Positions 8,701-54,955 of a stretch of DNA of 64,000 nucleotides are shown here, piece after piece; the first letter of the stretch is position 1; each line of letters opens with the position of its first letter. The notes beneath the pieces are model-generated. The model made no database searches and had not been told where the DNA came from. It saw only the letters and a program-made list of their open reading frames with translations. The DNA lies in NCBI GenBank assembly GCA_017521565.1, contig JAFXCE010000073.1, positions 1-64,000 on the forward strand, in the 5' to 3' direction. Position numbers and translations under genes: made by a program. Source of the DNA: Clostridia bacterium (GTDB lineage: Bacteria; Bacillota; Clostridia; Christensenellales; Aristaeellaceae).

Positions 8701-10163
8701 AGCGCAATTCTGATGCTGTGAGAAATATGCGAAATCAGCTCGGGCATTCGTGCAGATACCGACGCAATTGCCGACTGTACATACTTATCGATCTTGGACA
8801 GGTGCTGCTGCGCCATTCTGGACATCTGAATGAACGTCTTTCCAACCGCATTGTCTGCATCAACAGCTGCAACCGCAAACAGGCCAAGTCCCGCAGCTGC
8901 AATGCCGATCGGGCTGACCAGCATACCAAGAATCACACCGATGCGACTGAGCGTCAGGAGAAGTTGCCCTCCAGCCATCATGACCGGACCAATTGCCGCA
9001 GCAAGGATACCCATCTTGAGCGCAAGCTGCTTGCTGGCATTTGAAGACTTGTTGAACTTATCAACGAGCTTCGTGCCGGACTGGATCACACCTCTGATCG
9101 CGTCTTCATTGAGCGTGAACAACGCAACCTGCGCACCTTCGACAGCAGACTTGAACAGCGTCAGATCACCCTTGGCATTATCAAGGACTGTCTTGGCCAT
9201 CTTGTCTGTCGCTCCGTCACAGTCATAGATGGAATTCGTGAGCTTCTGAATATCCTCGTCGCTGGCATTGATGATCGCCAGCATACCGCTCATTGCTTCC
9301 TGTCCGAAGATCGACGCGGCGTACTGTGCCTTTTCCGCTTCAGTCAGCTTGGCAAAGCTGCTGCGCATATCGCTGATGAGCACATTGAACGGCTTCATTT
9401 CGCCATTGGAATATGTAAGACTCAGCCCGAGCTTGTCCATCGCCGTTGCCGCACGGTCACTCGGATTCGCCATCTGGCTGAGCGCCGCACGCAGAGCAGT
9501 GCCCGCCTGTCCAGCCTTGATGCCGCTGTTTGCCATCAGACCGATTGCAACAGCAACGTCCTCTGCTTTATACCCAAGCGCACCAGCTACCGGTGCGACA
9601 TATTTGAACGTCTCACCCATCATGGAGACGTTGGTGTTCGCATTGGAGGAAGCTACGGCAAGAATATCAGAGAAATGCGCTGCGTCATCAGCTTTCAGGC
9701 CAAACGCTGTGAGCGCATCGGTCACGATATCAGATACCGTGCCGAGGTTTTCGCCGGATGCTGCTGCCAGATTCATGATCGGTGCAAGGCCAGCAAGCAT
9801 TTCGTCGGTCTTCCAACCGGCCATCGCCATGTATTCCAGCGCTTCACCGGCTTCGGTTGCGGTAAACTGTGTTGTCGATCCCATCTCAAGCGCAGCTGCA
9901 TTCAGTTTTACCATCTGTTCTGCTGTGGCGCCGGAGATTGCCTCTACCATGCTCATCTGAGATGTAAAATCCATACCGGCAGAAAGAGATTGCTTGGCAA
10001 AGGATTCAAGCGGCGATGTCAACGAACTGTCGAGCTTCGCACCAAACGACGCCATATTAGCGCCGATTGCTTCCATGTTGTTCTCGATGGTACGCATGGT
10101 TGCATTTACGCCGGAAGAATCCAGATTAAACGAAGCAAACAATTCGCCTACTTTGAGTGCCAT
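5775..10163 (-). CDS. Tail tape measure protein (TP901 family)
   Basis: The 1462-residue product starts at ATG 10163 after AAGGAGGTGAACAACT. Residues about 60-340 match the conserved TP901-type core of phage tape measure proteins (ISGATAEQMVKLNAAALEMG, TTQFTATEAGEALEYMAMAGW, TALRAALSQMANPSDRA). Hydrophobic segments follow around residues 390-435 (LLLTLSRIGVILGMLVSPIGIAAAGL...), then a long Ala/Ser/Ile-rich helical region. Near the C-terminus are NAVRNSMTSAVNTAKSIM and a SINSPSKE-like motif (ARINSPSKEGYEIGSY), both usual for the family. The protein sets tail length and helps DNA entry. It is by far the largest gene in the late operon, directly after the frameshifted chaperone genes. Confidence 0.95.
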   Translation of the reverse strand: MALKVGELFASFNLDSSGVNATMRTIENNMEAIGANMASFGAKLDSSLTSPLESFAKQSLSAGMDFTSQMSMVEAISGATAEQMVKLNAAALEMGSTTQFTATEAGEALEYMAMAGWKTDEMLAGLAPIMNLAAASGENLGTVSDIVTDALTAFGLKADDAAHFSDILAVASSNANTNVSMMGETFKYVAPVAGALGYKAEDVAVAIGLMANSGIKAGQAGTALRAALSQMANPSDRAATAMDKLGLSLTYSNGEMKPFNVLISDMRSSFAKLTEAEKAQYAASIFGQEAMSGMLAIINASDEDIQKLTNSIYDCDGATDKMAKTVLDNAKGDLTLFKSAVEGAQVALFTLNEDAIRGVIQSGTKLVDKFNKSSNASKQLALKMGILAAAIGPVMMAGGQLLLTLSRIGVILGMLVSPIGIAAAGLGLFAVAAVDADNAVGKTFIQMSRMAQQHLSKIDKYVQSAIASVSARMPELISHISHSIRIALPQMTSTAVNIISSLAEMIGSNADGLLDLGVTIIESIVEGLSRSLPNIVRAGTKLVTGLIDAFTSGRITEALAGMIRDIKEGLNAVDWPTAGKAILTSITGALNGLSADISAKFTAAKQAVEEISWSEISTKIKSGVTIASDWLKGVILGDTLTDESTWKDVGSKVWSWIRSGFSAAESWLKNLILGEDSEGAGWSDVGDRIVGKISDSLASVTPESLAAGIGDLSAIASAIVDKVVSSKANFAAGAGQLIAKLVTGISTFSGWDALASEFQTFAGNVVTSIVNGIGKVTGAASDVATAIGTVLSGITVEDVTTATSSVAELIINGVVAGIKAAVTGASMLAGALANTLENINEKDYGETIGTLAADLLGYICKALNNITEAPDVTDLMLNIGNGMKNAVASIGDIAGEIARYITSPEGSSVIIEAGKSVIGSLMMGMAIGLGSLGDGLASAIHSVLDGAVRGVLEHFGVDENLGLDAFQDTVFENTVEGMLTAAQLSERYLHQELGTILDQAAAYVALEAAGFGDELGNFNAQFSSAGIALVQALQSGMLSEQEATMAIAGLIANNMADGLLGDEIAGQYYAAGEQSMFAFIDAFGTGEDALVALCQQLGLDVPQTLSQAIHDSEAWTTTGDIIGEEMNKAIASASSGLYESGKTMVEDSVVGGVADGASESQATVQAAADSIMNTISGLEDRAAVESDAKTTGQTAGGAIGTGMTDEQASVQTAVQTLIALMNTTYQPIVVNFGQTTRTAMLGICNGVNALTPSVINAVRNSMTSAVNTAKSIMSASAGSSIGRNIMQGVVNGINSMSGTLASAARRAISNALSAMRSEARINSPSKEGYEIGSYVDIGAANGFLGGEMAKAAATAMANAIHALSKGAYISDPSFGTVLSDRQNARQVANETARSLSASGDDGFARQVGTAMADRLIESGALDGDIYLSGKKVGERVTKPVSQNIAKKSKSTISGRAAQGVIV

Positions 10164-10177
10164 AGTTGTTCACCTCC

Positions 10178-10818
10178 TTAAACAGAAATAACGGACGAAA
10201 AGAAAGCGGCAGCCTGTCGCCTGTCGCGCTCTTCGTCCGTTTCGTCTCTTTCTTCCTCTTGCAGATCTTGTTGTGCACGGATACGCACTGCCACAGCACC
10301 ATTCGGAGAAAGATTTCTACAAAGAATCAGGAATCGACGCCATGTCATTCCGTCAAGCTGCTCCACAAGATCGATGCCGTAGTCTCTCAGGAAGTCGGCC
10401 TCGATGGCGTCCCAGATGCGAAGCAGGTTTACTTTTTTGCGCCGTTACCGCCCGGCAGCTTGGTACGGCTGTCCTCATCCGTCAACTCGGTCGCTTCGCC
10501 ATCATCCTCTTCCGATCCATTGATGACATTGAACACTTTCTGAATCAGCATGGACAGCTGCTCAACGTCCATGCCTCTGGCACAGATATCATCCATCTGC
10601 TTCGTTCCGAACAATGCATCAGCCGCCGTGAAGATCATCTTGACGAATGCGGCGTTGCGGGAAGACTGATCAGCCAGCCGCTCGGCACGGGCCATCATCA
10701 ACGGAACCACAGCCGGCATCTTCGCAGGGACTTCGTATTCCTTGCCATAAACCTTGACGGTGATCGTCTCCTTCTCCTTCTCGGACATAAACAGGTCAAA
10801 ATCCAGCATCTTGCTCAT
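10178..10818 (-). CDS. Tail assembly chaperone, -1 frameshift fusion product (gpGT-like)
   Basis: This is the predicted long form made when ribosomes shift -1 at A AAA AAG (10432-10438). The 0-frame reads from 10818 to the AAG codon; after the slip, reading continues as VNLLRIWDAIEADFLRDYGIDLVEQLDGMTWRRFL and ends at TAA 10178-10180, giving about 213 residues. The second part (WDAIEADFLRDYGIDL..., then a charged ERDETDEERDRRQ tail) is typical of the T-part of siphophage chaperones and has no usable start of its own. In lambda, gpG and gpGT keep the tape measure protein soluble and recruit tail tube subunits. Position directly before the tape measure gene supports this. Confidence 0.85.
10429..10818 (-). 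CDS. Tail assembly chaperone, unshifted form (gpG-like)
   Basis: The short form ends at TAA 10429-10431, directly after the slippery heptamer. I choose ATG 10818 because AAGGAG lies 6-7 bases upstream; the longer TTG start (10836) would sit inside that site. The product is 129 residues: MSKMLDFDLFMSEKEKETITVKVYGKEYEVPAKMPAVVPL..., an acidic, mostly helical protein ending LPGGNGAKK. It resembles phage tail assembly chaperones of Firmicutes siphophages. It lies between the major tail protein, from which it is separated by a terminator, and the tape measure gene. Confidence 0.88.
   Translation of the reverse strand: MSKMLDFDLFMSEKEKETITVKVYGKEYEVPAKMPAVVPLMMARAERLADQSSRNAAFVKMIFTAADALFGTKQMDDICARGMDVEQLSMLIQKVFNVINGSEEDDGEATELTDEDSRTKLPGGNGAKK
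10432..10438 (-). other. Programmed -1 ribosomal frameshift site (A AAA AAG)
   Basis: Read on the minus strand in the gpG frame, the codons are GCA AAA AAG TAA. The heptamer A AAA AAG is the classical bacterial slippery sequence, as in dnaX. The 0-frame stop follows immediately, and the -1 frame stays open for 84 codons with a chaperone-like sequence. Both features are those of the lambda G/T arrangement. Confidence 0.85.
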
Positions 10819-43896: not shown

Positions 43897-44310
43897 TTAC
43901 TTAAAGGACAGCACATTCGGCTGTTCCTCTGCTTCTTCCGGCGGCGTGCCAAGCGGCACAGAAACCGGCTGCGGCGTAATCTCGCCGTTCATGTTGACCT
44001 GACCCGGCACCTGATCGAGCTTCTGCGTCGCATGGACTGTACCAAGATCGTCCATGTCGAAGAAGACGGTTTGCTTCACCGGGACAGGCGGTGCGAGATT
44101 CTTCTTGATGTCGAAAGACATCTCGCCGCCATCGCGCGCGCTGTTGGGCTTCACGGTGAGCACCATCGTGATCCTGCGCGCTTTTGTCGGGTCTGTGTTC
44201 GGGTCAAGAACATTCTGAGCGAGCTCGTTCAGCGCATCCTGCCAACGTTCGTTGACAGCGCCGCCCATCAGGGAATTGAGGTCGCCCATACCTGAGAATG
44301 TCTGAGCCAT
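43897..44310 (-). CDS. Hypothetical phage protein, 137 aa
   Basis: It starts MAQTFSGMGDLNSLMGGAVNERWQDALNELAQNVLDPNTDPTKARRITMVLTVKPNSARDGGEMSFDIKKNLAPPVPVKQTVFFDMDDLGTVHATQKL after GCAGGAGGATAAACC. The part NxxDPNTDPxKxRxITxxLxxxP is shared with many Firmicutes phage proteins that accompany DUF2303 genes. Function unknown. Confidence 0.72.
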   Translation of the reverse strand: MAQTFSGMGDLNSLMGGAVNERWQDALNELAQNVLDPNTDPTKARRITMVLTVKPNSARDGGEMSFDIKKNLAPPVPVKQTVFFDMDDLGTVHATQKLDQVPGQVNMNGEITPQPVSVPLGTPPEEAEEQPNVLSFK

Positions 44311-44313
44311 GGT

Positions 44314-45660
44314 TTATCCTCCTGCTGTGTTTTGTCGTGTGTCGAACGGAACGAAGGTCATGTACGCGCCATCAAACGCGACGGGGACGATACCCTTCTT
44401 TCCGTTTCTGTTCTTAGCCACCGCGATGAGCATGAACGTCCAGCCTTTGGCCTGACAGGTATCATGCAGAGGACGCCACTTGTCGGAGAGTGATTCTTTG
44501 CTTGCAGGGTGCAGAATCATAAACTGATTGGCATCCTGCTCGATGGATCCTGATTCACGACTCTCCGAGATCTTGGGCATTCTGCCGCCCTCGCCTGTAC
44601 CGGCTTCGCTCTGGCGGTTCATCTGTGTCATGGCGATGACAGGGATTTTGAGCTCCATTGCCAACTGCTTGAGCTGTCTGGAAATCTGACCGACTTCCTC
44701 TGTGCGGTTTGAAGTCTTCTGGCCACTGCTCATCAGCTGCAGATAGTCGATAACGATCAAGTCAAGCCCTTTATCCCTGCGCTGACGCAATGCGATGGTC
44801 CTGATCTGCGCCGGCGTGGTTGCCTTTGTCGTGATAGACAAGCGCATGCTGTAGATGCTTCCGTAGGCTTCAATCGCTCTCTCAATCTGGTCTCCCGAGA
44901 AGCGCCGAGCTTCGATTGTGTCTACCGGGACATGGGCGTATCTCGCCAGCACACGGCTGTAGATTTCGCTCTCATCCATCTCCATGGATACGATGAGCAC
45001 ATTCTTTCCGGCTGCTGCAGCATTCTCTGCGATGTAAAGTCCCAGAGCCGATTTGCCTACAGACGGCCGTGCACCGATGACGCACAGCTTGCTGCCGCGG
45101 ATACCGCCGCCAAGCAGATCATCCAACGTGCAGATGCCGGTTTTGATGCTGTCATCTGTCTTTTCTTCTTCAAACATCCACATATGCATATCTAGGCATA
45201 CCTTCTCGATCGGCGTCACTTCCTGAACAGGGCCCGATTTCTGCAACTCATCGATCTCATTGCGGATCTGGTCTGCTGCTTTTGTCGGGTCAATCGAAGC
45301 ATCACTCGCCAGCTTTTGCAGATTCTGCGCTGTTTTACTGAGCGCACGCCGCATGCTGGCTGCCCGGATGTTCTCGACGTAATGCGGAACCTCAAACGAC
45401 ACGCCGGATTGCATCAGGTCGATAAGAATCGACGTGTCCATATCTGGCAGCGCATCAGCCACAGAAACCAGATCACACGGCTTCCCCTGAGAATCCAAAA
45501 GCGCCATGGTGCTGTATACCGTGCTGCATACCAGATCGCGGAAATCACTCTGCTGCAGATCGACATCCCGGAAAGAAACCGCATCGGTTAGAATCGCACC
45601 GATGACCGCTCGCTCGCTGGAAATGGCCTCATAGACCGATTTCTTCTGCTCGTCGCTCAT
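44314..45660 (-). CDS. dnaB: Replicative DNA helicase (DnaB-like)
   Basis: The 448-residue protein has the DnaB N-terminal domain (SSERAVIGAILTDAVSFRDV...DFRDLVCSTVYSTMALLDSQGKP) and a RecA-like C-terminal ATPase: GARPSVGKSALGLYIAENAA (Walker A, about residue 196), VSMEMDESEIYSR, LIVIDYLQLMSSG (Walker B, about 303), VIAMTQMNRQSE and RESGSIEQDAN. It unwinds phage DNA at the fork as a hexamer. It follows the probable initiator gene, with overlapping stop and start. Confidence 0.95.
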   Translation of the reverse strand: MSDEQKKSVYEAISSERAVIGAILTDAVSFRDVDLQQSDFRDLVCSTVYSTMALLDSQGKPCDLVSVADALPDMDTSILIDLMQSGVSFEVPHYVENIRAASMRRALSKTAQNLQKLASDASIDPTKAADQIRNEIDELQKSGPVQEVTPIEKVCLDMHMWMFEEEKTDDSIKTGICTLDDLLGGGIRGSKLCVIGARPSVGKSALGLYIAENAAAAGKNVLIVSMEMDESEIYSRVLARYAHVPVDTIEARRFSGDQIERAIEAYGSIYSMRLSITTKATTPAQIRTIALRQRRDKGLDLIVIDYLQLMSSGQKTSNRTEEVGQISRQLKQLAMELKIPVIAMTQMNRQSEAGTGEGGRMPKISESRESGSIEQDANQFMILHPASKESLSDKWRPLHDTCQAKGWTFMLIAVAKNRNGKKGIVPVAFDGAYMTFVPFDTRQNTAGG

Positions 45661-46424
45661 CCGTACACCTCAAGGCCGTCGTAGTACTCTTTCCCGCCCT
45701 TCTGCTCAAAAGCAGGTTCAGCAGCACGGGGAGCACCCCGGGACGAGTTGCCGCCTGTCATGCGCGCCAGAACGCTGCGGTAGAAATTGACGGATAGCCG
45801 TTCACGACTGTTTGAGTTACAGGCCTGACGAAGAGCTTGATCCAGCACATCCTCTCCATGTTTGTCCAGATCTTCCAGAACAGCATCCAGCGTTGACGGA
45901 TAATCAGGCAGACGATACTGCTCAATGATCTTCATTGCCAGCTTGTTCTTCCGGATCTGTTCATGAAGGTCGACGTGGCGTTCCTCTTGTTCAGACGTTG
46001 ATCCTTTCCCCTCTACTTCTACCTTCAATTCAGTATCAGTTTCAGTTTCTATTCCTTCCGTCTGCATGCGTTCGGATGCACCTGCATCCTCTTGCATGGG
46101 ATGGACGCCCTGTTCCTCCGTCTGCATGCGTTCGGATGCACCTTTTCCCCATCTCGCATTGGCAGCTTCCCGAGTCTTTTTCTTCTTTTCAGCGTACTTT
46201 GCAAGGGACTTCTTCACGCCACTAATCATCATGGCATAGGCCATGGACGCCACAGGGCTGAGTGATCCAACGGCAGGCTCTGTGCCAGACTGCGCATATT
46301 GCCCCAACGCTGCCACAACTGCAAACGCATCTTCCGCGCTGATCTGCTTGCTGGCGACCTGCTCATTGAGCGCATTGAGCGCATCAAAGTAGATCACAAA
46401 CCCCTGCTGCTTATCGGAACTCAT
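45657..46424 (-). CDS. Probable phage replication initiator/organiser (DUF6291-like N-terminus)
   Basis: The 255-residue protein starts MSSDKQQGFVIYFDALNALNEQVASKQISAEDAFAVVAALGQYAQSGTEP after GGGGGTGAATCAAA, and KKKKTREAANARWGK (about residues 80-94) is shared with phage initiators having DUF6291-type starts. A variable middle region encodes GASERMQTE twice; the last 100 residues are helical (SERLSVNFYRSVLARMTGG). Its position before dnaB and the DNA repeats within the gene suggest origin binding, as in lambda O. Function inferred. Confidence 0.7.
   Translation of the reverse strand: MSSDKQQGFVIYFDALNALNEQVASKQISAEDAFAVVAALGQYAQSGTEPAVGSLSPVASMAYAMMISGVKKSLAKYAEKKKKTREAANARWGKGASERMQTEEQGVHPMQEDAGASERMQTEGIETETDTELKVEVEGKGSTSEQEERHVDLHEQIRKNKLAMKIIEQYRLPDYPSTLDAVLEDLDKHGEDVLDQALRQACNSNSRERLSVNFYRSVLARMTGGNSSRGAPRAAEPAFEQKGGKEYYDGLEVYG
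46057..46143. repeat. Two identical 27-bp repeats inside the initiator gene; candidate origin
   Basis: Bases 46057-46083 recur exactly at 46117-46143, a spacing of exactly 60. The core is CTGCATGCGTTCGGATGCA, itself nearly an inverted repeat. Between the copies lie further TGCAT half-sites (46083-46099). Iterons inside the initiator gene are the rule for many phage origins. Confidence 0.6.
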
Positions 46425-46477
46425 TTTGATTCACCCCCTTGCCTTTGGAATTGCTTGGATGCGGCAAATCTCGCCGC

Positions 46478-46554
46478 TGGTAGGGGTATCGGGACTTGAA
46501 CCCGAACCCTGGCTGGTATAAATCCGCTGCGTATGCCATTTCCGCCATACCCCC
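46478..46554 (-). tRNA. tRNA-like element A (anticodon arm poorly paired)
   Basis: Acceptor GGGGGTA pairs with TACCCCT (one G-U), followed by A and an encoded CCA. D arm (GCGG...CGC) and T arm (TCGGG-TTCAAGT-CCCGA) are good. Total 77 bases. The anticodon arm GCGGATTTATACCAGC pairs only with a bulge; if the loop is ATTTATA, the anticodon would be UUA, which would read UAA. No standard identity fits. Confidence 0.5.
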
Positions 46555-46558
46555 CGGA

Positions 46559-46634
46559 TGGAGCTGTCGGCGGGACTCGAACCCGCAACCTGATGCTTAC
46601 AAAGCAACTGCTCTGCCTATTGAGCTACGACAGC
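46559..46634 (-). tRNA. tRNA-Thr (TGT)
   Basis: A complete 76-base cloverleaf with encoded CCA: acceptor GCTGTCG/CGACAGC, D arm GCTC...GAGC, anticodon loop TTTGTAA giving TGT, T arm GCGGG-TTCGAGT-CCCGC. One T-T mismatch is in the anticodon stem. It reads ACA codons. Confidence 0.93.
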
Positions 46635-46647
46635 AAAAGAACAAAGA

Positions 46648-46722
46648 TGGAGTGAGTGACGGGATTCGAACCCGCGTTCCCAGCTTGGAAGGCTGGTGCT
46701 CTAACCGCTGAACTACACCCAC
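46648..46722 (-). tRNA. tRNA-Gly (TCC)
   Basis: A complete 75-base cloverleaf with encoded CCA: acceptor GTGGGTG/CACTCAC, D arm GTTC...GAGC, anticodon stem CCAGC/GCTGG with loop CTTCCAA giving TCC, T arm GCGGG-TTCGAAT-CCCGT. It reads GGA and GGG codons. Confidence 0.93.
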
Positions 46723-46895
46723 ACTGAAACTCCCTAGACCTCCTTGACCGTATGCTGAACACGAAGAAATCTGGCAAAGAACTCAAGACATCCGGAGGAG
46801 GTCGGGCCACTTGGAGAAAGGAAAAACGAAACAACAAGCCGCCATGCGCTTATAGCGCGAAGGGAGTTACGAAGGATCAATGGCACGTCCTTCGA
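46723..46895. other. Array spacer without gene, contains small hairpin
   Basis: No coding frame with a ribosome site is seen. GCGC-TTATA-GCGC (46846-46858) forms a small hairpin; a similar GTGC-TTATA-GCAC occurs in another spacer at 47370-47382. The spacer may hold processing signals or degenerate tRNA-like parts. Confidence 0.4.
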
Positions 46896-46964
46896 TGGTG
46901 GAACGGGATGGACTCGAACCATCGCCCCGACATAATGTCGCTCTACCTACTGAGCTACCGTTCC
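46896..46964 (-). tRNA. tRNA-like element D (69 nt, reduced anticodon arm)
   Basis: Acceptor GGAACGG/CCGTTCC is perfect, discriminator A and CCA are encoded, the D arm (GCTC-AGTAGGTA-GAGC) and T arm (GATGG-TTCGAGT-CCATC) are perfect. The anticodon arm is replaced by CGACATTATGTCG, a hairpin with a three-base loop. Total length with CCA is 69, seven below a normal tRNA. Confidence 0.6.
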
Positions 46965-47078
46965 ATAGCCACGATGCCACCCCGGGAACGAGATTATCGC
47001 CCTTTGGAATGGCTTTAGCGTTGATCTTCGCTCCGCTGTCGTGTCAGCGTTTCGCCTGCCGGGTCTTACACCCGGAGT

Positions 47079-47147
47079 TGGAGCAGCGTTCCGGAGTTGA
47101 ACCGGAAAGCGGGAGGCACCCATGGTCAGTCTCCCATCCATCGCTGC
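47079..47147 (-). tRNA. tRNA-like element E (69 nt, reduced anticodon arm)
   Basis: Acceptor GCAGCG/CGCTGC, encoded CCA and a perfect T arm TCCGG-TTCAACT-CCGGA are present; the D arm can form ATGG/CCAT. The anticodon position holds only GGGTGCCTCCC, a three-pair hairpin. Length is again 69 with CCA. It begins seven bases after the end of element F. Confidence 0.55.
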
Positions 47148-47153
47148 ATAAAC

Positions 47154-47296
47154 GGTGCAGGACGTCTGGATTCGAACCAGAACAAATGACGAATCCCTTT
47201 TTCGCTGGCTAGGCTGAAAGCTCTTCGCCATCTTATCGCCAATGTGACGCAGGGAACAGATCTCCCCGCCGCTCTGCCGCTTGAGCTACGTCCTGC
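47154..47296 (-). tRNA. tRNA-like element F (about 143 nt, long insertion)
   Basis: Acceptor GCAGGAC/GTCCTGC, D arm GCTC-AAGCGGCA-GAGC and T arm TCTGG-TTCGAAT-CCAGA are perfect. Between the D and T arms are about 90 bases: a 7-pair hairpin GCGGGGA-GATCTGT-TCCCTGC in the anticodon position, then a 65-base insertion. U33 is missing in the loop. The 3' end reads ACCG rather than ACCA. Confidence 0.5.
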
Positions 47297-47420
47297 ATAT
47301 AGGCCTCCTTAACCCCTAGCCCTGGGGAGGAAGCCGGCGCATCCCAGAGACTAAGCTGGGAGAGCGCTCGTGCTTATAGCACTGAGGAGTGAATTCCTTA
47401 TGCCCCAGATCACAGCTGGG
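47297..47420. other. Array spacer without gene, hairpin-rich
   Basis: Between elements F and G lie CCCAG-N8-CTGGG, the GAGCGCTC palindrome and GTGC-TTATA-GCAC (47370-47382). On the plus strand AAGCTGGGAGAGC resembles a tRNA D arm, but no matching acceptor or T arm could be found. Left unassigned. Confidence 0.4.
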
Positions 47421-47571
47421 TGGTGGAAGACGCCAGATTCGAACTGGCTGTTCAGGTTAAGGTGCTACGCGATAACAGATCTATCTATAAGGAGTGTGAA
47501 ACGGCTTCTCGGGATTCCCAATCAGAGGCAACATGGCTGTTTGCACCTGAACTGATCCTGCATCGTCTTCC
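47421..47571 (-). tRNA. tRNA-like element G (151 nt, long insertion)
   Basis: Acceptor GGAAGAC/GTCTTCC and T arm GCCAG-TTCGAAT-CTGGC are perfect, and ACCA is encoded. A D-like arm TGCA...TGCA is possible. The anticodon position has a small AACA-GCCA-TGTT hairpin, followed by about 75 extra bases before the T arm. It is the first element of the array in transcription order. Confidence 0.5.
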
Positions 47572-47576
47572 ATGGA

Positions 47577-47625
47577 AAGGGGCTTTCGCCCCTTGTGACC
47601 ATTTTCGTGAGGTCACGAAAATGGT
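47577..47625. terminator. Two perfect hairpins between recombination gene and tRNA array
   Basis: AAGGGGC-TTTC-GCCCCTT (47577-47594) and ACCATTTTCGTGA-GG-TCACGAAAATGGT (47598-47625) are exact inverted repeats of 7 and 13 pairs. The second starts at the stop codon of the gene to the right. No long U-run follows, so they may be processing or attenuation structures for the tRNA array rather than full terminators. Confidence 0.55.
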
Positions 47626-48713
47626 TATTTCTGCTTCTCACCCTTCTGCTCGGTCTTTCCTCCGGCGATCTGCGCAGGCTTCTCCGGCATAAAGGAATCA
47701 ATCATCTTGACCACCTCATCGAAGCGCGCCGCCGGCACATCAGCAAACTTGGCGATCTTCATGCGCTTGAGCGCGTCGCTGATCTCGCCCTGACGGCCAG
47801 TCTTTGCCGCGGCTTCCATAAGCTGAGTGATCTGCTCTTTGGAAATCAGCTGATTCTTGTCATTGCCAGCAAGGTGCGGGAAGATATCGCCCAGCGAGAT
47901 CGCGCCATCGTCAAGGCCGTTTTTCAGCTCCTTGAGCTTGAGCATCTCATCTGCGGACCAGTCTTCCATCCTCGTGTTGAGATACGTTTCAAGGTCAACC
48001 TGCGCAACGCCCAGCTTTTCATAGATGCGCAGCATCTTGGCAACCAGTGCCGCACGCTGCTTCTCATCCTTCATCATCTCATTCAAGCCGGAGGATGCCG
48101 TCTGACGACAAGCATTAACCGCTGCGGCCGTGACGTCTCCCGGGATCACCTGAAGGATACAGGCTCTCAAACGACGGGCGCCCATGTTGGCCTCCAGCTC
48201 GTAGATGTCGCGATCATCGGTCAGCTTATATCCACCCGTGCGCGTGGATCGGAAGTGCTTAACCTCAAACTGTCGGGAAACATACAGGTTCGTCTGCAAA
48301 TCCCACGCGAAAGCACGCACAAGGCTGAATCCAACGCCGCGCTTGTCAACGCCGCGCTCAAGCACTTCCTGTCCGAAATTGACGTTGCCCCAGTTACGGG
48401 CAAGCACTTCAGCCAGCCTGATTGACGGACCGGATACCGTTTCCTTACCGCGGGGGAAGGTATACACCGCAGCATCGGCCAGCGTGGGACGCTTGCACTC
48501 ATTCAAGATCTGATCCATGGAATACAGCGGGTCGCGCGGATACTGGCGCGCCATGAACACCTGCGCCTTGACCTCGGAAATCGCACGGGCTTCCATGTTA
48601 GCAGCAACCGCATTGCCGGAATCGTGGCGATTGGTATCCATCTGCATCGGGTTCGCAGCACCAACTGCATAGGGATTCACAACGGACATGCCGTCGTCAA
48701 AGTAATCACTCAT
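47625..48713 (-). CDS. Conserved phage protein of the recombination module
   Basis: ATG 48713 follows AGAGAGGCAATTCG. The 362-residue protein contains EVKAQVFMARQYPRDPLYSMDQILNECKRPTLADAAVYTFPRGKETVSGPSIRLAEVLARNWGNVNFGQEVLERG...SLVRAFAWDLQTNLYVSRQFEVKHFR...LTDDRDIYELEANMGARRLRACILQVIPGDVTAAAVNAC, a highly conserved phage family without an established function. It occurs with RecB-type exonucleases where other phages have a RecT or Erf annealing protein, so a strand-annealing or replication role is inferred. Confidence 0.75.
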   Translation of the reverse strand: MSDYFDDGMSVVNPYAVGAANPMQMDTNRHDSGNAVAANMEARAISEVKAQVFMARQYPRDPLYSMDQILNECKRPTLADAAVYTFPRGKETVSGPSIRLAEVLARNWGNVNFGQEVLERGVDKRGVGFSLVRAFAWDLQTNLYVSRQFEVKHFRSTRTGGYKLTDDRDIYELEANMGARRLRACILQVIPGDVTAAAVNACRQTASSGLNEMMKDEKQRAALVAKMLRIYEKLGVAQVDLETYLNTRMEDWSADEMLKLKELKNGLDDGAISLGDIFPHLAGNDKNQLISKEQITQLMEAAAKTGRQGEISDALKRMKIAKFADVPAARFDEVVKMIDSFMPEKPAQIAGGKTEQKGEKQK

Positions 48714-48730
48714 CGAATTGCCTCTCTTTC

Positions 48731-49435
48731 TCACGCTCTCGCGCTGATGATCGTTTCCTGATAGAACTCAACGCCCGGAATCTGGGCCGTTCCCTTGCTC
48801 ATTCTGGCGAGATTATCCAGCACCGACATGTTGATCGAGCGAACCTCAATGCCATCGACATAGGCAGGAACAGCTTTGGCATCGACCACACGGGCGCGCC
48901 ACTTCTTGCGGGTGCTGGTTCCTTTGGCCTGTTCAAACTGAACCGGTGTCGGCGCTTTCATGTCCTCAACCATCTCAGCCATCGCCATGCTGACCATCGC
49001 GCCCTGAACATCGCCAGACTTTTCGGCTTCGGCAGCTTCCTGCAAGAGGCGGTCGCGTTCTTCCTGCTGCAGCTTTTTGGCTTCCTGCTCGGCCTGCACC
49101 CTCGCTATTTCGACCGCCATCTGATATCCGGCCATGTTCTTCTTGATGACCTTCTCCGCTTCTTCCAGCGGAGCAAGCATCTCTTTTTCCCTCTGGCACA
49201 CCTGCGTATGGGCAGCTTTCGCCGCTTCCTTCGTCGGCTTCCAGTAATCCTTCATCTGCTTGGCGCGCCGCTTGATCTCCGTCAGGAACGCAGCGGCGCG
49301 CTCATAATCCTGCTGGCTCTCGATCTTCAGCTCTTTCGCTTCGTTGATCGCGGCAGTTCCAGCCAACTTGAGCTGAAACTCAATCGAAGCATCAGCAACA
49401 AGGTTGGAAGCCTGCATCTGTCGAACAGATTCCAT
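48731..49435 (-). CDS. Coiled-coil phage protein, 234 aa
   Basis: It starts MESVRQMQASNLVADASIEFQLKLAGTAAINEAKELKIESQQDYERAAAFLTEIKRRAKQMKDYWKPTKEAAKAAHTQVCQREKEMLAPLEEAEKVIKKNMAGY and goes on with a long coiled coil (VQAEQEAKKLQQEERDRLLQEAAEAEK). The final domain has STRKKWRARVVDAKAVPAYVDGIEVRSINMSVLDNLARM. Similar proteins sit between the exonuclease and annealing-type genes of phages; function unknown. Confidence 0.75.
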   Translation of the reverse strand: MESVRQMQASNLVADASIEFQLKLAGTAAINEAKELKIESQQDYERAAAFLTEIKRRAKQMKDYWKPTKEAAKAAHTQVCQREKEMLAPLEEAEKVIKKNMAGYQMAVEIARVQAEQEAKKLQQEERDRLLQEAAEAEKSGDVQGAMVSMAMAEMVEDMKAPTPVQFEQAKGTSTRKKWRARVVDAKAVPAYVDGIEVRSINMSVLDNLARMSKGTAQIPGVEFYQETIISARA

Positions 49436-49449
49436 CTTTCATACTCCCT

Positions 49450-50070
49450 TCAAGCTCTCTTCTCGCCCTGCATCGCGTTGTAAATTGCAAGGCAATGCAG
49501 GAAGTTCTTGTATCCATCCCCCACCCGCTCAAAACGGTACTTGCCATTCTTGAGCAGTTGGAGACCATAGCGCTGACGCACCTTGATTCCGTGGCTTTTC
49601 AATGCTTCGGAGTACCCACCGATCTGCGTAGCCAGCATGACCGGGTGATAGACCGCCGTGCATTTGATGTCAATCACATCAACCCCGGTTCCATCATCTG
49701 GTTCGATGTAGCCCAGCAGATCAAGCGTGCCAGCATAGGACATCAGGCGGTGGAAGATTCTCAATTCGGACGCCACCCATACCGGGTGATGCTCTTCTTG
49801 GAATCGGATGAATGCCTCAACATATGGCTGAGTATCTTCGTCACTCTCGACGATGCCGTATTTCACGAAGTTGCTCACCTGCTCATGCGCCCGCGTACCC
49901 CGGTCGGCTGCATTCTGCAGCGCATCTTCCGGAACATCGCTATAGAGCATCAGGCTCATCGGCTCCATGATCTGCGTCACGCTCGGCAGCTTCATGCCGC
50001 CAAGCATATATACATGGGACTCTTCGTCGAATTCGATCTTCGGGATCCCTCGGATCTGAGCATCAATCAT
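49450..50070 (-). CDS. RecB-family PD-(D/E)XK exonuclease
   Basis: The 206-residue protein has the nuclease motifs RGTRAHEQVSNFVKYG (about residue 57), ASELRIFHRLMSYAGTLDLLGYI (motif with catalytic D about 117), VDVIDIKCT (D/E-x-K about 131) and TQIGGYSEALKSHGI (motif with QxxxY about 147). It resembles the small Cas4/RecB-type nucleases phages use to resect DNA ends for recombination. It precedes the coiled-coil and annealing-type genes. Confidence 0.85.
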   Translation of the reverse strand: MIDAQIRGIPKIEFDEESHVYMLGGMKLPSVTQIMEPMSLMLYSDVPEDALQNAADRGTRAHEQVSNFVKYGIVESDEDTQPYVEAFIRFQEEHHPVWVASELRIFHRLMSYAGTLDLLGYIEPDDGTGVDVIDIKCTAVYHPVMLATQIGGYSEALKSHGIKVRQRYGLQLLKNGKYRFERVGDGYKNFLHCLAIYNAMQGEKRA

Positions 50071-51941: not shown

Positions 51942-52565
51942 ATGAACCGTCTCAAGGAACTACGCAGACAAAAAGGCGTCCGGCAAGGTGAAATTGCCGA
52001 CCTCTTACATATCACCCAAGGAGCTGTATCTCAGTGGGAACTTGGACGCACCAATATGGACTATCAGTATGCAAAGGTACTTGCTGAATACTTTGGTGTT
52101 ACTGTCTCTTACCTTCTAGGGGAGTCTAACGTCTTAGATCACTCCAACGTACCAGCGTCAAAAGCTACCGGATTCCGAATTCCGGTTCTTGGAATAATCC
52201 GCGCCGGCATCCCAGTCGCCGCAATCGAAGATATTGAAGATTGGGAAGAAATCACCACCGACATGGCAAAGACCGGCGAATTCGTCGCACTCAAAGTAAA
52301 GGGCGATTCTATGGAGCCACAAATAAAAGACGGCGACATCGCAATCATTCGCCGACAGGAAACTGTCGAGAATGGCGACATCGCCGTGGTGCTGGTCAAC
52401 GGAGAGGAAGCTACGATCAAGAAGGTCAAGTTCTCTCCAGATGGTATGATGCTGATTGGCTTCAATACCGCAGCCTATGAACCACACTTCTACAATAAGG
52501 AAGAAATCGCTGATCTGCCGGTCAGAATCTATGGCAGATTGGTTGAAGTCAGGAGGAAGTTTTGA
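51942..52565 (+). CDS. CI/LexA-like phage repressor with S24 peptidase domain
   Basis: The 207-residue protein follows GGAGGTGCATT. Residues 1-60 are an XRE domain (IADLLHITQGAVSQWELGRTNMDY); residues about 85-207 are a LexA-type S24 domain with FVALKVKGDSMEPQIKDGDIAIIRR (catalytic serine in GDSM, about residue 125) and VNGEEATIKKVKF (catalytic lysine about 163). The Ala-Gly/Cys-Gly-type cleavage site is probably RAG at about 87-89. It keeps the prophage silent and is inactivated in the SOS response. Confidence 0.93.
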   Translation: MNRLKELRRQKGVRQGEIADLLHITQGAVSQWELGRTNMDYQYAKVLAEYFGVTVSYLLGESNVLDHSNVPASKATGFRIPVLGIIRAGIPVAAIEDIEDWEEITTDMAKTGEFVALKVKGDSMEPQIKDGDIAIIRRQETVENGDIAVVLVNGEEATIKKVKFSPDGMMLIGFNTAAYEPHFYNKEEIADLPVRIYGRLVEVRRKF

Positions 52566-53608
52566 TGAAAAAGTCGGTTTTCTTGTTTGCTTCCGCAATT
52601 ATTCTTTTCTCTTCTATCTCTCTGGCAGAACCGATTACGGTTGATTTAGATGCAATGACCCCTGCTGAAATCAAGGAACTTATCACCCTTGCTGAAGCCG
52701 AATACAAAGAAGCTACTTCCTTTTCTTCTGATGTATATACCCTCCTTGCACCCAATTTCAGATCCGCTTTTGAATCTCTGATTCCATCTGACGCTACTGC
52801 CTCCTATCCTCTTTTAGGATTCAAAGATCAACGCGCAAGAACTATGTATATGCTTTCCGGCAATTGCACCGTTAAGTTTGCTGATAAATCTAAATCGTCA
52901 TACGAAATGACCATGATTTATTGGCACGACGAATCCTCCCAAACATTCCATCAAGTCGCGTTTTTCTCCGACGAGAAAATCTACTATTGCGACAATGAAC
53001 TTCTTAAAAACGTAGTACCATATCTGAACGAGTCTATCATCCAGAAGCTTGGTGCTAATGATATCATCTACCAGGCAACCACAGCACAAGCAACACCTGT
53101 TCCCACTCCGACATCGACACCCACTCCGACGCACACACCAGCTGCAACACCTTCTCCTGACCCGACCCTGACCGCAACTCCTGCTCCCACACCAGAACCG
53201 ACGTCTCTGACCCCAGAAGCCCTAATTGAGCAAGCTATTCGTGCTGAGCTCGGCGAGGACTATATCAGGCACGAAATACACAGTTATACTGCTAATTGCA
53301 ACATCTATTTCCATCTCGGCAGCGGTTGGGATAATGCTTCCATACGAAGTGGATTCCTTTATGATTGTGCACAAGTCCTGCAAAAACTAGATGAACTCAA
53401 TGACAGCGGTGCAATCCTTCTTGACAGCATCTATTTGCAAGCTGACGGAGAATTCATCGATACCTACGGCAATGCAACAACGGAAAAAGCCATTGCTTTG
53501 CGGATATATAAAGAGACGCTGGAGAAGATCAACTGGGATCGCTTCAATTATAAAGACCTCGATGCAATCTCTTACAGCTATTGGTGCCATCCGGCATTGA
53601 AAGATTGA
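52565..53608 (+). CDS. Secreted protein coupled to cI (lysogenic conversion candidate)
   Basis: ATG 52565 overlaps the cI stop as TGATG, with GGAGGAAG upstream. The 347-residue protein has a signal peptide (KKSVFLFASAIILFSSISLAEP, cleavage probably after SLA), an N-terminal domain of about 150 residues, a Pro/Thr linker (ATPVPTPTSTPTPTHTPAAT..., about 178-218) and a C-terminal alpha/beta domain of about 130 residues. The linker resembles those of host secreted proteins in this window. Expressed with cI, it is present in lysogens; superinfection exclusion or host-surface change is possible. Family not recognised. Confidence 0.78.
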   Translation: MKKSVFLFASAIILFSSISLAEPITVDLDAMTPAEIKELITLAEAEYKEATSFSSDVYTLLAPNFRSAFESLIPSDATASYPLLGFKDQRARTMYMLSGNCTVKFADKSKSSYEMTMIYWHDESSQTFHQVAFFSDEKIYYCDNELLKNVVPYLNESIIQKLGANDIIYQATTAQATPVPTPTSTPTPTHTPAATPSPDPTLTATPAPTPEPTSLTPEALIEQAIRAELGEDYIRHEIHSYTANCNIYFHLGSGWDNASIRSGFLYDCAQVLQKLDELNDSGAILLDSIYLQADGEFIDTYGNATTEKAIALRIYKETLEKINWDRFNYKDLDAISYSYWCHPALKD

Positions 53609-53624
53609 TTTTTGACATACAAAA

Positions 53625-53651
53625 GCGCATCTTCACCGATGCGCAATTTTT
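53625..53651 (+). terminator. Terminator of the cI operon
   Basis: GCGCATC (53625-53631), six-base loop, GATGCGC (53638-53644), then AATTTTT. It ends the cI-secreted protein transcript before the integrase gene. Confidence 0.82.
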
Positions 53652-53698
53652 AAAAGCCAAAAGGGAACATTTGTTCCCGGCAGATAGGAGGGATCATC

Positions 53699-54955
53699 AT
53701 GCCGGCCGAACTGAAGGTTTTGGAATTCCCCACCAAAGCCGCACCAAAGAAAAAAAAGCGCAAAAAGCTGCGTAAATACGAACGTGCAGATGGCCGCTTC
53801 TGCAAATATGTAACAGTCAATGGTATCAAAAAAGCAATTTATGGCACTTCCACCGAAGATGTTATTGAGCAAGCCAAAGAATACAAAATGCTTGTCACTA
53901 ATGGTCTAACCAATCTGGATTATGAAATCAGAGTAAAGGATTGGTGTGATCTCTGGTTCAAAGCCAGAAGAGCAACAAAAGGAAAGGGATATCAACGCAA
54001 TGCTGACCTGCAAATGCGCCTTATTGTCGCCCAAATTGGTCACATGCGCGTGCGTGATGTTAGGGAAATTCATCTTCAAAACGTCCTAAACTCTCGCTCC
54101 GGAATGTCAAAATCACAGATTGAGCAGCTTTCCAATACCATTAAGAGCATATTTTCATTTGCTCGTAAAAATCGCCTCATTACTATTGATCCGTCAATGG
54201 ACATCATTCGACCTATAGGAACTTATGAAGGCCATCGGATTCTTGAAAAGTGGGAAATTGATTTCCTGCTTGCTAATGTAACGATTCATCGCAGCATGAT
54301 TTGGGCGCTCACCATGCTTTTTGCTGGATTACGACGCGGTGAACTACTCGCACTTGAAACCAAGAATATTGATTTTGAAGCACGTAGAATCCACATTGTC
54401 ACGGCTGTTCGTTTTGAAGATGGCAAGGCTGTTAATGCCGGAACAACAAAAACGAAAGCCGGCATCCGTGATGTACCAATTTACGAACCACTATATTCTA
54501 TATTAAAGCGCGATCTTTCAGAAAACCCGCGTCAATATCTGGCTAGTCAAGAATGCGGGAAGCCCATTCTCTCCGAAGGTGGATTCCGCGGACAATGGGA
54601 TACACTTATGCGTCGACTTACCAACGTCAACAGCGGATATCCTGCGCACCTGCATGTCAAAAGAACACCAGAGCAAAAAGCCGCATTTGAAGCAACGCTC
54701 AAGTATATCTCCTTTACACCACATGATTTGAGATATACCTTCGCAACTATGCTCTTTAATGCTGGCGTAGATGAAAAGTCAGCATGTAAAATCATGGGTC
54801 ATCGAGATGTGAGAATGACACGTGACCTCTATGCAAAACTAACGATTGAGCAGAATCTGAAATCTGACAAGAAGATGGAAGAGTATTTGCAAAGCTATGT
54901 CGTGACAGAAGATTTGACAAACAATTCTGACAGACGATCGGGAATATTGGTGTAA
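53699..54955 (+). CDS. int: Tyrosine-type phage integrase
   Basis: The 418-residue protein follows AGGAGGGATCATC. It has a basic arm-binding N-terminus (KKKKRKKLRKYERADGRFCKYVTVNGIKKAIYGTS), a SAM-like core-binding domain (about residues 75-155) and the catalytic domain with FAGLRRGELLAL (first Arg), TPHDLRYTFATMLFNAGV (His-x-x-Arg) and IMGHRDVRMTRDLYAKL (His and the tyrosine nucleophile). It integrates and excises the prophage at the attachment site probably within 55.0-55.1 kb. Confidence 0.95.
   Translation: MPAELKVLEFPTKAAPKKKKRKKLRKYERADGRFCKYVTVNGIKKAIYGTSTEDVIEQAKEYKMLVTNGLTNLDYEIRVKDWCDLWFKARRATKGKGYQRNADLQMRLIVAQIGHMRVRDVREIHLQNVLNSRSGMSKSQIEQLSNTIKSIFSFARKNRLITIDPSMDIIRPIGTYEGHRILEKWEIDFLLANVTIHRSMIWALTMLFAGLRRGELLALETKNIDFEARRIHIVTAVRFEDGKAVNAGTTKTKAGIRDVPIYEPLYSILKRDLSENPRQYLASQECGKPILSEGGFRGQWDTLMRRLTNVNSGYPAHLHVKRTPEQKAAFEATLKYISFTPHDLRYTFATMLFNAGVDEKSACKIMGHRDVRMTRDLYAKLTIEQNLKSDKKMEEYLQSYVVTEDLTNNSDRRSGILV

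Follow-up and report, generated by a model that had tools for sequence, protein, structure and literature searches.

Possible non-decoding tRNA mimics in a tRNA-like array of a temperate phage element from a Clostridia bacterium

Introduction

The tRNA genes of phages, a long-standing puzzle, are usually explained either by codon usage or by the replacement of tRNAs that have been cut. An array of seven tRNA-like elements, here called A to G, occupies positions 46478-47571 of the minus strand in the window, the whole 64-kb stretch of DNA that was analysed, and every member has an intact T arm and acceptor stem. Several of them carry no arm that could read a codon, which raises the question of what such genes may be kept for. 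In this article, we describe the array and its setting, the relatives of its members in viral and cellular genomes, and the explanations that compete to account for its altered elements.

The array and its genomic setting

The array scan sought a 5-bp T stem with a TTCRANY loop, followed by a 7-nt acceptor half whose partner half lies 30-260 nt upstream, and in the 64-kb window it found exactly seven elements with a partner half, all on the minus strand (Table 1). The sole further T-arm-like match in the 64 kb (50027, plus strand) has no acceptor partner half, and a relaxed T-arm scan of 46401-47650 returned the same seven elements together with one poor match bearing two stem mismatches. With G.U counted as paired, 48 of the 49 acceptor pairs of A to G are formed, the exception being one A.A in E, as are all 35 T-stem pairs; NCCA is encoded by six of the seven elements, and F terminates in CACC. 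The good acceptors, TTCRANY T loops and mostly encoded ends that had been claimed on first reading are thus confirmed, and so is the claim of seven minus-strand elements of which two, Thr (TGT) and Gly (TCC), are ordinary: ARAGORN calls only A, B and C in the array, and Rfam RF00005 scores B at 69.8, C at 67.7, D at 51.2 and A at 37.5 bits, with no report for E, F or G at E up to 1.

The alteration of the remaining anticodon arms, the third structural point of the original prediction, also holds. A normal decoding arm, taken as a 5-bp stem and a 7-nt loop with U33, is called in B and C and is absent from D, E, F and G; D and E are both 69 nt long, while F and G, at 142 and 151 nt, carry 66 and 75 nt beyond 76 nt. 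Element A, labelled Tyr(ATA) by ARAGORN, has a D arm that reads as Leu-like and, by eye, an anticodon stem of 4 bp with a bulge. It may be just damaged, and the altered arms of the array are not all of one kind. Folding z-scores are -0.8 for A, -2.7 for B, -1.9 for C, -2.9 for D, -2.4 for E, -4.0 for F and -1.4 for G, which makes A and G energetically unremarkable. Spacers of more than 100 nt separate C from D, D from E and F from G, and the spacer sequence (46790-47420), read directly, contains the short palindromes GTGCTATAAGCAC and GCGCTATAAGCGC.

Table 1. Positions of the array elements, their mini hairpins and the flanking genes
Feature	Coordinates	Strand	Basis or remark
DnaB-like helicase gene	44314-45660		
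DUF6291 protein	45657-46424	-	downstream of array, adjoins DnaB-like helicase gene
Element A, tRNA-like, ACCA encoded	46478-46554	-	scan, ARAGORN, RF00005
Element B, ordinary tRNA-Thr(TGT), TCCA encoded	46559-46634	-	ARAGORN, RF00005, scan
Element C, ordinary tRNA-Gly(TCC), TCCA encoded	46648-46722	-	ARAGORN, RF00005, scan
Element D, 69-nt tRNA-like, without normal-size anticodon arm	46896-46964	-	RF00005, scan, pattern, fold
Mini hairpin of D, GACA-TTA-TGTC, anticodon position	46929-46939	-	sequence and fold
Element E, 69-nt tRNA-like, possible TGG/CCA D stem	47079-47147	-	scan, fold, sequence
Possible mini hairpin of E, GGG-TGCCT-CCC, anticodon position (inferred)	47111-47121	-	sequence
Element F, canonical acceptor, D and T arms	47155-47296	-	scan, split test, fold (z -4.0)
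Element G: acceptor, P2, long loop, T arm, acceptor, ACCA	47421-47571	-	scan, fold, homologue comparison
phrog_3657 protein, no assigned function	47625-48734	-	upstream of array, then two exonuclease-like genes
Exonuclease-like gene	48731-49435		
Exonuclease-like gene	49450-50070		

The element in the window is a temperate phage, with an S24-type repressor and an integrase at 51942-54955 and an SPP1-type portal, and its host genome measures 3.08 Mb and is 84.9% complete. A BLAST search of the array against phages returned 59 records, none with 80% query coverage, the best 20 of the 59 being short tRNA-sized matches. Relatives of the upstream protein occur in 17 viral loci; the flanks covered there include no comparable array, and ARAGORN finds one tRNA each in two of these 17. 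That protein is present in one of 60 genomes, the window's own, and a search for relatives of the array-side helicase confirmed none.

Element G and its homologue

In G, a single strand replaces the canonical D arm, and the interior is formed by an 8-bp helix, P2 (GTTCAGGT:ACCTGAAC), and a long loop that ends in AGCACCTTAAC. A homologue, G', which first appeared as a weak BLAST match of the array against its own genome, lies in another contig, C59, which resembles a different prophage (weak DnaD-like loader and HNH matches, and a clearer polymerase-exonuclease match). The array of C59 comprises a Cys gene, an Ile-type tRNA whose anticodon stem pairs poorly, G' and a Gly gene; repeated small hairpins with GGAAAGAC-type loops, read by eye, lie between these tRNA-like genes (L023:5190-6260).

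In both copies, the acceptor is followed by CAGGATCA and the last helix strand is preceded by AGCACCTTAAC. The original prediction had proposed to align relatives for compensatory changes, and for G this proved fruitful: in a comparison of two sequences that covers the acceptor, the strongest inner helix of each copy and the T stem, treating both strongest helices as equivalent, nine of 20 stem pairs differ, all nine being changed on both sides with pairing kept (two of seven in the acceptor, six of eight in P2 and one of five in the T stem), and none is changed on one side or broken. MAFFT leaves the 5′ strands of the two copies unaligned, and a correspondingly placed helix of eight Watson-Crick pairs appeared 26 times in 2000 mononucleotide shuffles of G, and as often in those of G'. 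This comparison, the best evidence of selection in the window, supports the view that both the acceptor-T stack and a helix of the element's own are selected, and we consider it likely that G has been selected for a non-decoding fold.

The G family is rare. Its two-part motif has no match in the viral_contigs set, and a shorter pattern matched 10 contigs, of which nine look coding or due to chance and one falls in a tRNA-like gene (L034), none being G-like when their flanks were read by eye. Among 28 other genomes of the genus and 149 other genomes of the family, which are overlapping samples, the family is absent, and the two copies of the window's own genome are the only ones.

Elements D, E and F

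The acceptor, D and T arms of D are canonical, and GACA-TTA-TGTC stands in for the 17-nt anticodon arm. In E, the folding program favours a different inner pairing over the GGG-TGCCT-CCC hairpin, and a canonical D motif is absent, its place in the short-arm group described below being assigned by length and shape only. F has 89 nt between its D and T arms, predicted to form hairpins of 8 and 10 bp. Searches for homologues of D, E and F found none. Judged by their structure, D, E and G have no loop able to decode.

Viral elements with a shortened anticodon arm

D fits a pattern that recurs in viral contigs, consisting of canonical D and T motifs separated by a gap 3-12 nt shorter than in a tRNA, so that the anticodon region is at least 3 nt short; the acceptor lies outside the pattern, and intact D and T motifs are required, which hides decayed relatives. 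At least 120 viral contigs match, yielding 102 unique elements among the matches listed. In this set, the acceptor is fully paired in 52 of the 102 (control mean 0.8, maximum 4) and has at most one mismatch in 72 and two or more in 30, and 94 have a paired outer T stem (control mean 14, maximum 22). A perfect 5-bp stem with a 4-nt loop is found in 14 of the 43 listed elements of the commonest length (control mean 0.8, maximum 3), and the loops of these 14 include five of GNRA type (GAAA twice, GGAA, GAGA and GTGA) and TTCG. Six GNRA or UNCG loops in 14 have p about 2e-5 under equal base frequencies, and the GNRA excess weakens to p about 0.005 if loops must end in purine-A (five of the six NNRA loops begin with G); since deletion of 3 nt from the loop leaves a 5-bp stem and a 4-nt loop whose 3′ remainder ends in purine-A, loop composition hints at selection and does not prove it.

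Of the listed short-arm elements, 43 have another called tRNA no more than 500 nt away, and all 43 share its strand. CCA is encoded by 10 of the 52 listed elements with a paired acceptor, against 6 of 11 normal tRNAs from the same loci, and the first and discriminator bases are looser than in normal tRNAs. No recurrent partner gene was seen near short-arm elements, the largest protein cluster comprising four loci, and BLAST searches of three viral elements and one Microbacterium element against phages gave 3, 0, 0 and 0 records. D is tied to this widespread viral group by shape, a weaker case than that for G, and whether D-type elements are selected for a non-decoding fold seems to us evenly poised.

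Covariation between related viral loci

Flank similarity among the short-arm loci defined 13 groups and 31 possible pairs, of which 11 were picked by eye and 20 dropped, mostly as non-corresponding in appearance. The acceptor and T stems of the 11 pairs show 11 double changes, 10 single changes with pairing kept, 104 unchanged positions and 7 broken or unpaired; for all 31 pairs the totals are 81, 28, 206 and 57, which are uninformative because many of the pairs are not the same gene. In the mini-stem, nine comparable pairs gave 8 double changes, 33 unchanged and 4 broken. A synteny check of eight pairs placed the flanks in alignment to within 6 nt of the element in L039/L051, L047/L058, L066/L136, L081/L107 and L079/L126, and found no matching place in L042/L098, L077/L140 and L040/L097; because all eight mini-stem double changes come from the latter three, whose elements stand at non-corresponding places, they are not counted as covariation.

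The five syntenic pairs together have 4 double changes, 3 single, 50 unchanged and 3 broken or unpaired in the acceptor and T stems. It had been proposed that random mutations in the acceptor and T stems of relatives would speak for decay, and the outcome is divided: in L039/L051 three acceptor pairs differ and every one is compensated on both sides, whereas in L081/L107 one pair is compensated and three are broken or unpaired. L047/L058, L066/L136 and L079/L126 show almost no stem change, and in the elements of L047, L057 and L058 the loop letters vary and the stem letters are kept. The syntenic pairs are too few to decide between selection and decay.

Cellular genomes and named phages

The short-arm pattern occurs in one of 200 genomes of the host order, the window's own, and in three of 301 genomes of a Lactobacillaceae sample, the seed included. 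Across 84,980 species genomes it matches at least 112 contigs. Of the 112 listed, 75 are readable and 24 of these have a perfect acceptor, while the remaining 37 include at least five whose match depends on N. Polaribacter phage Danklef_1 carries a 58-nt element, annotated 'tRNA-OTHER, Undet (NNN)', in which the acceptor (with one G.U) and the D and T arms are paired, as they are in D, and the anticodon arm is reduced to a short linker. It is known by this annotation only, which states no function, and it was found through a 44-nt tRNA-motif match, so that homology to the window is not implied.

An element of Lacticaseibacillus porcinae aligns with one in Lactobacillus phage A2, which was dropped as a clean armless example because ARAGORN reads it as tRNA-Leu(taa) with an arm just 2 nt short. 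Similarly, the armless element L300 of Streptococcus porci aligns with a complete tRNA-Phe in phage Javan565 and has two acceptor pairs weakened to G.U. Both armless elements look as if they had arisen from a more complete tRNA, and decay and reuse would fit equally. A further RNA, with canonical D and T motifs joined by an 11-nt link (e.g. AGCAGGGAAAC), was noticed in Larkinella and Spirosoma genomes (L305, L314, L331 and L345); it has little acceptor pairing and shows TATCAAC followed by GTTGAT-like letters.

Insert-bearing tRNA genes of phages

A long-gap pattern for insert-bearing tRNA-like genes matched at least 120 viral contigs, with 115 unique elements among the matches listed, the acceptor being perfect in 47 of them (control 0.9). 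When the collected loci were scanned more widely, 102 insert-bearing elements with perfect acceptor, D and T stems emerged. Omission of the insert leaves a perfect anticodon arm, with T33 and with position 37 a purine, in 57 of the 102, and in none when each candidate was shuffled once; ARAGORN reads all 57 joined strings as tRNAs, partly by construction. About ten inserts hold another tRNA motif, some possibly being neighbouring genes read together. Many of the other inserts are 40-57 nt long and follow nucleotide 28 or 29, with a hairpin and then ACAGCAA or ACTGCAA. An alignment of alpha inserts yielded no consensus structure, the filter being too narrow (13 rows, one by chance).

Inserts of this kind look like small introns of about 40-60 nt in phage tRNA genes of L161-L274 (e.g. 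L171, L174, L237, L255 and L265), and most of them interrupt the anticodon stem in its 5′ strand; some end in GTTACT or GTTAT, and all are far below group I size. Among the open-access journal papers listed, no title or abstract opening describes small tRNA introns in phages. In L173 and L255, tRNA genes are nested in an anticodon loop, Phe(GAA) within Arg(CCT) and Gly(TCC) within Met(CAT), and ARAGORN calls the inner genes and, once joined, the outer ones. L171 has several consecutive long (113-118 nt) tRNA matches at 10101-10768, and a cyanobacterial-type tmRNA (L171:7967-8218) inside a large tRNA array of this viral contig.

F and G were also considered as insert-bearing tRNAs and rejected, there being no clean split in either and the splits of G' being found in 19 of 200 shuffles as well. 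A group I intron was likewise discarded, with no RF00028 match at E up to 1 in 44000-50000.

Comparison with known systems

In the tRNA-like half of tmRNA, the acceptor is followed by single-stranded sequence where a D stem would stand, then by a long helix and a T arm, and G resembles it in this order of parts. Neither ARAGORN nor Rfam gives a tmRNA match, and instead of the G.U pair at 3-70, G has A-T and its homologue C-G. YrlA (RF02553) is a tRNA-like RNA, as the array elements are, whose stem runs past the acceptor into a Ro-binding stem, whereas no pairing beyond the acceptor end was seen in the 52 listed viral short-arm elements with a paired acceptor. YrlA has no match at E up to 1 in 44000-50000, nor at E up to 3 in the C59 array (L023, 4900-6500).

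For YrlA, it has been suggested that the tRNA-like domain may competitively inhibit an anticodon nuclease (PMC7790460). Mutations in the anticodon loop have been proposed to render phage tRNAs insensitive to the tRNases of the host (van den Berg 2023, PMC10264068); as presented there, single positions are changed and the tRNAs continue to work in translation, whereas in the array the anticodon arm is gone or replaced. Cas12a3 cleaves tRNA tails, loss of the loops leaving cleavage unimpaired, and according to the same account the nuclease reads the acceptor, T arm and CCA (PMC12851939), all of which are kept in the array. It is a conceivable target of such a mimic and not a relative. In its pertinent passages, PMC10879173 mentions undetermined tRNA types and does not describe an anticodon-less class, and among the open-access journal papers listed, no title or abstract opening describes anticodon-less phage tRNAs.

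Competing explanations

The serious rival to a reading as mimics is that these are decaying tRNA genes in which single indels struck the anticodon side and the remainder has not yet worn away, an account with somewhat less than an even chance of being right. It had been argued that decay should damage the acceptor and T stems as well, and this is only partly right, since a single indel in each of A, D and E would be enough to account for them. The weakened acceptor of L300 beside the complete tRNA-Phe of Javan565, the 30 of 102 listed viral elements with two or more acceptor mismatches, and a pattern that preselects intact D and T arms are all consistent with decay. Against it, the changes of the five altered elements are confined to the D/anticodon half while 48 of 49 acceptor pairs and all 35 T pairs are intact array-wide, the spacers hold just one poor T-arm remnant, the acceptors of L039/L051 are compensated, and the nine differences between G and its homologue are all compensated and none broken.

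Alternatively, the elements may be punctuation for processing, recognition modules at which RNase P and the 3′ enzymes would release flanking RNAs. An acceptor and a T arm suffice as an RNase P substrate, the spacers of more than 100 nt could supply the RNAs released, and position -1 is able to pair with 73 in 0.69 of the 52 viral short-arm elements, much as in insert-bearing tRNAs (0.72 of 46); yet D and F keep a D arm that such a role does not need and G keeps a helix of its own, which makes punctuation unlikely. The proposal that F and G are intron-bearing tRNAs, decoding once the insert is removed, draws on the 57 of 102 phage genes that give a perfect anticodon arm in this way and none in one shuffle each, but with no clean split in F, none in G, splits in G' that shuffles match and no canonical D arm in G or G', it is quite improbable. 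Finally, the elements might be substrates for a charging-dependent reaction outside the ribosome: some synthetases are independent of the anticodon, and six of the seven array elements encode NCCA, whereas in the viral group, among the matches listed, CCA is encoded by 10 of 52 and the end bases are mixed, which weakly disfavours it, and no protein family recurs nearby, the largest cluster comprising four loci. We regard this last account as very improbable.

A model for the altered elements and its implications

We tentatively prefer a reading, possible at somewhat less than an even chance, in which selection maintains G, and with less certainty D and E, as tRNA mimics that do not decode and may serve as decoys for body-reading proteins. 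In its favour are the intact acceptor and T halves, the compensated changes of G and of L039/L051, the loop composition, the strand shared with neighbouring tRNAs and the rarity of such elements in cellular genomes; against it are the bias of the pattern, the mismatched acceptors and scarce CCA of the viral group with its loose end bases, and searches that found neither a recurrent partner gene nor homologues of D, E or F. Some genes of a phage tRNA cluster would have turned into such mimics: G would retain the acceptor-T stack, with a conserved helix and loop in place of the D/anticodon half, and D, less surely E, would keep the acceptor stem and the D-T elbow, with a tiny hairpin closing the anticodon arm. 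RNase P and 3′ enzymes could process RNAs of tRNA shape, and proteins for which the acceptor, elbow or CCA is the recognition site could bind them. The mimics would be transcribed with the neighbouring tRNAs and have their ends trimmed by the tRNA end-processing enzymes. Their most likely role would lie outside translation, as decoys or competitive inhibitors of tRNA-directed host defences that are bound through the tRNA body, the elbow or the CCA end. The suggestion made for YrlA and the cleavage of tRNA tails by Cas12a3 would both fit such a role. The integrity of the fold and the loss of decoding structure are features of the elements themselves; competition for defence enzymes we infer.

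Selection for something beyond translation, as originally claimed, is borne out best by G, less well by D, which belongs to its group by shape, and may not apply to A, which could be damage. The decoy claim survives in part: anticodon-dependent nucleases are unlikely targets, the anticodon being gone, and a decoy that binds body-reading proteins is possible. Our confidence in mimics or decoys is lowered by the failed synteny of three pairs, by the relatives in A2 and Javan565 and by the loop-deletion null.

A broader and rather doubtful generalization is that diverse phages keep tRNA genes in which the anticodon arm has given way to a tiny stable hairpin, a short linker or a new domain and selection still acts on the acceptor stem and elbow, translation-dead body doubles that would occupy or inhibit tRNA-directed host enzymes. 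If this were true, the array would count among the cases of such a class, D and E representing the hairpin type beside the conserved G family, and part of the tRNA content of phages would be unrelated to decoding. Polaribacter phage Danklef_1, which carries an element of this kind, is in culture, so that the idea is testable. Selected anticodon-less tRNA genes would exclude both of the usual answers for those genes, and the tRNA body would be their working part.
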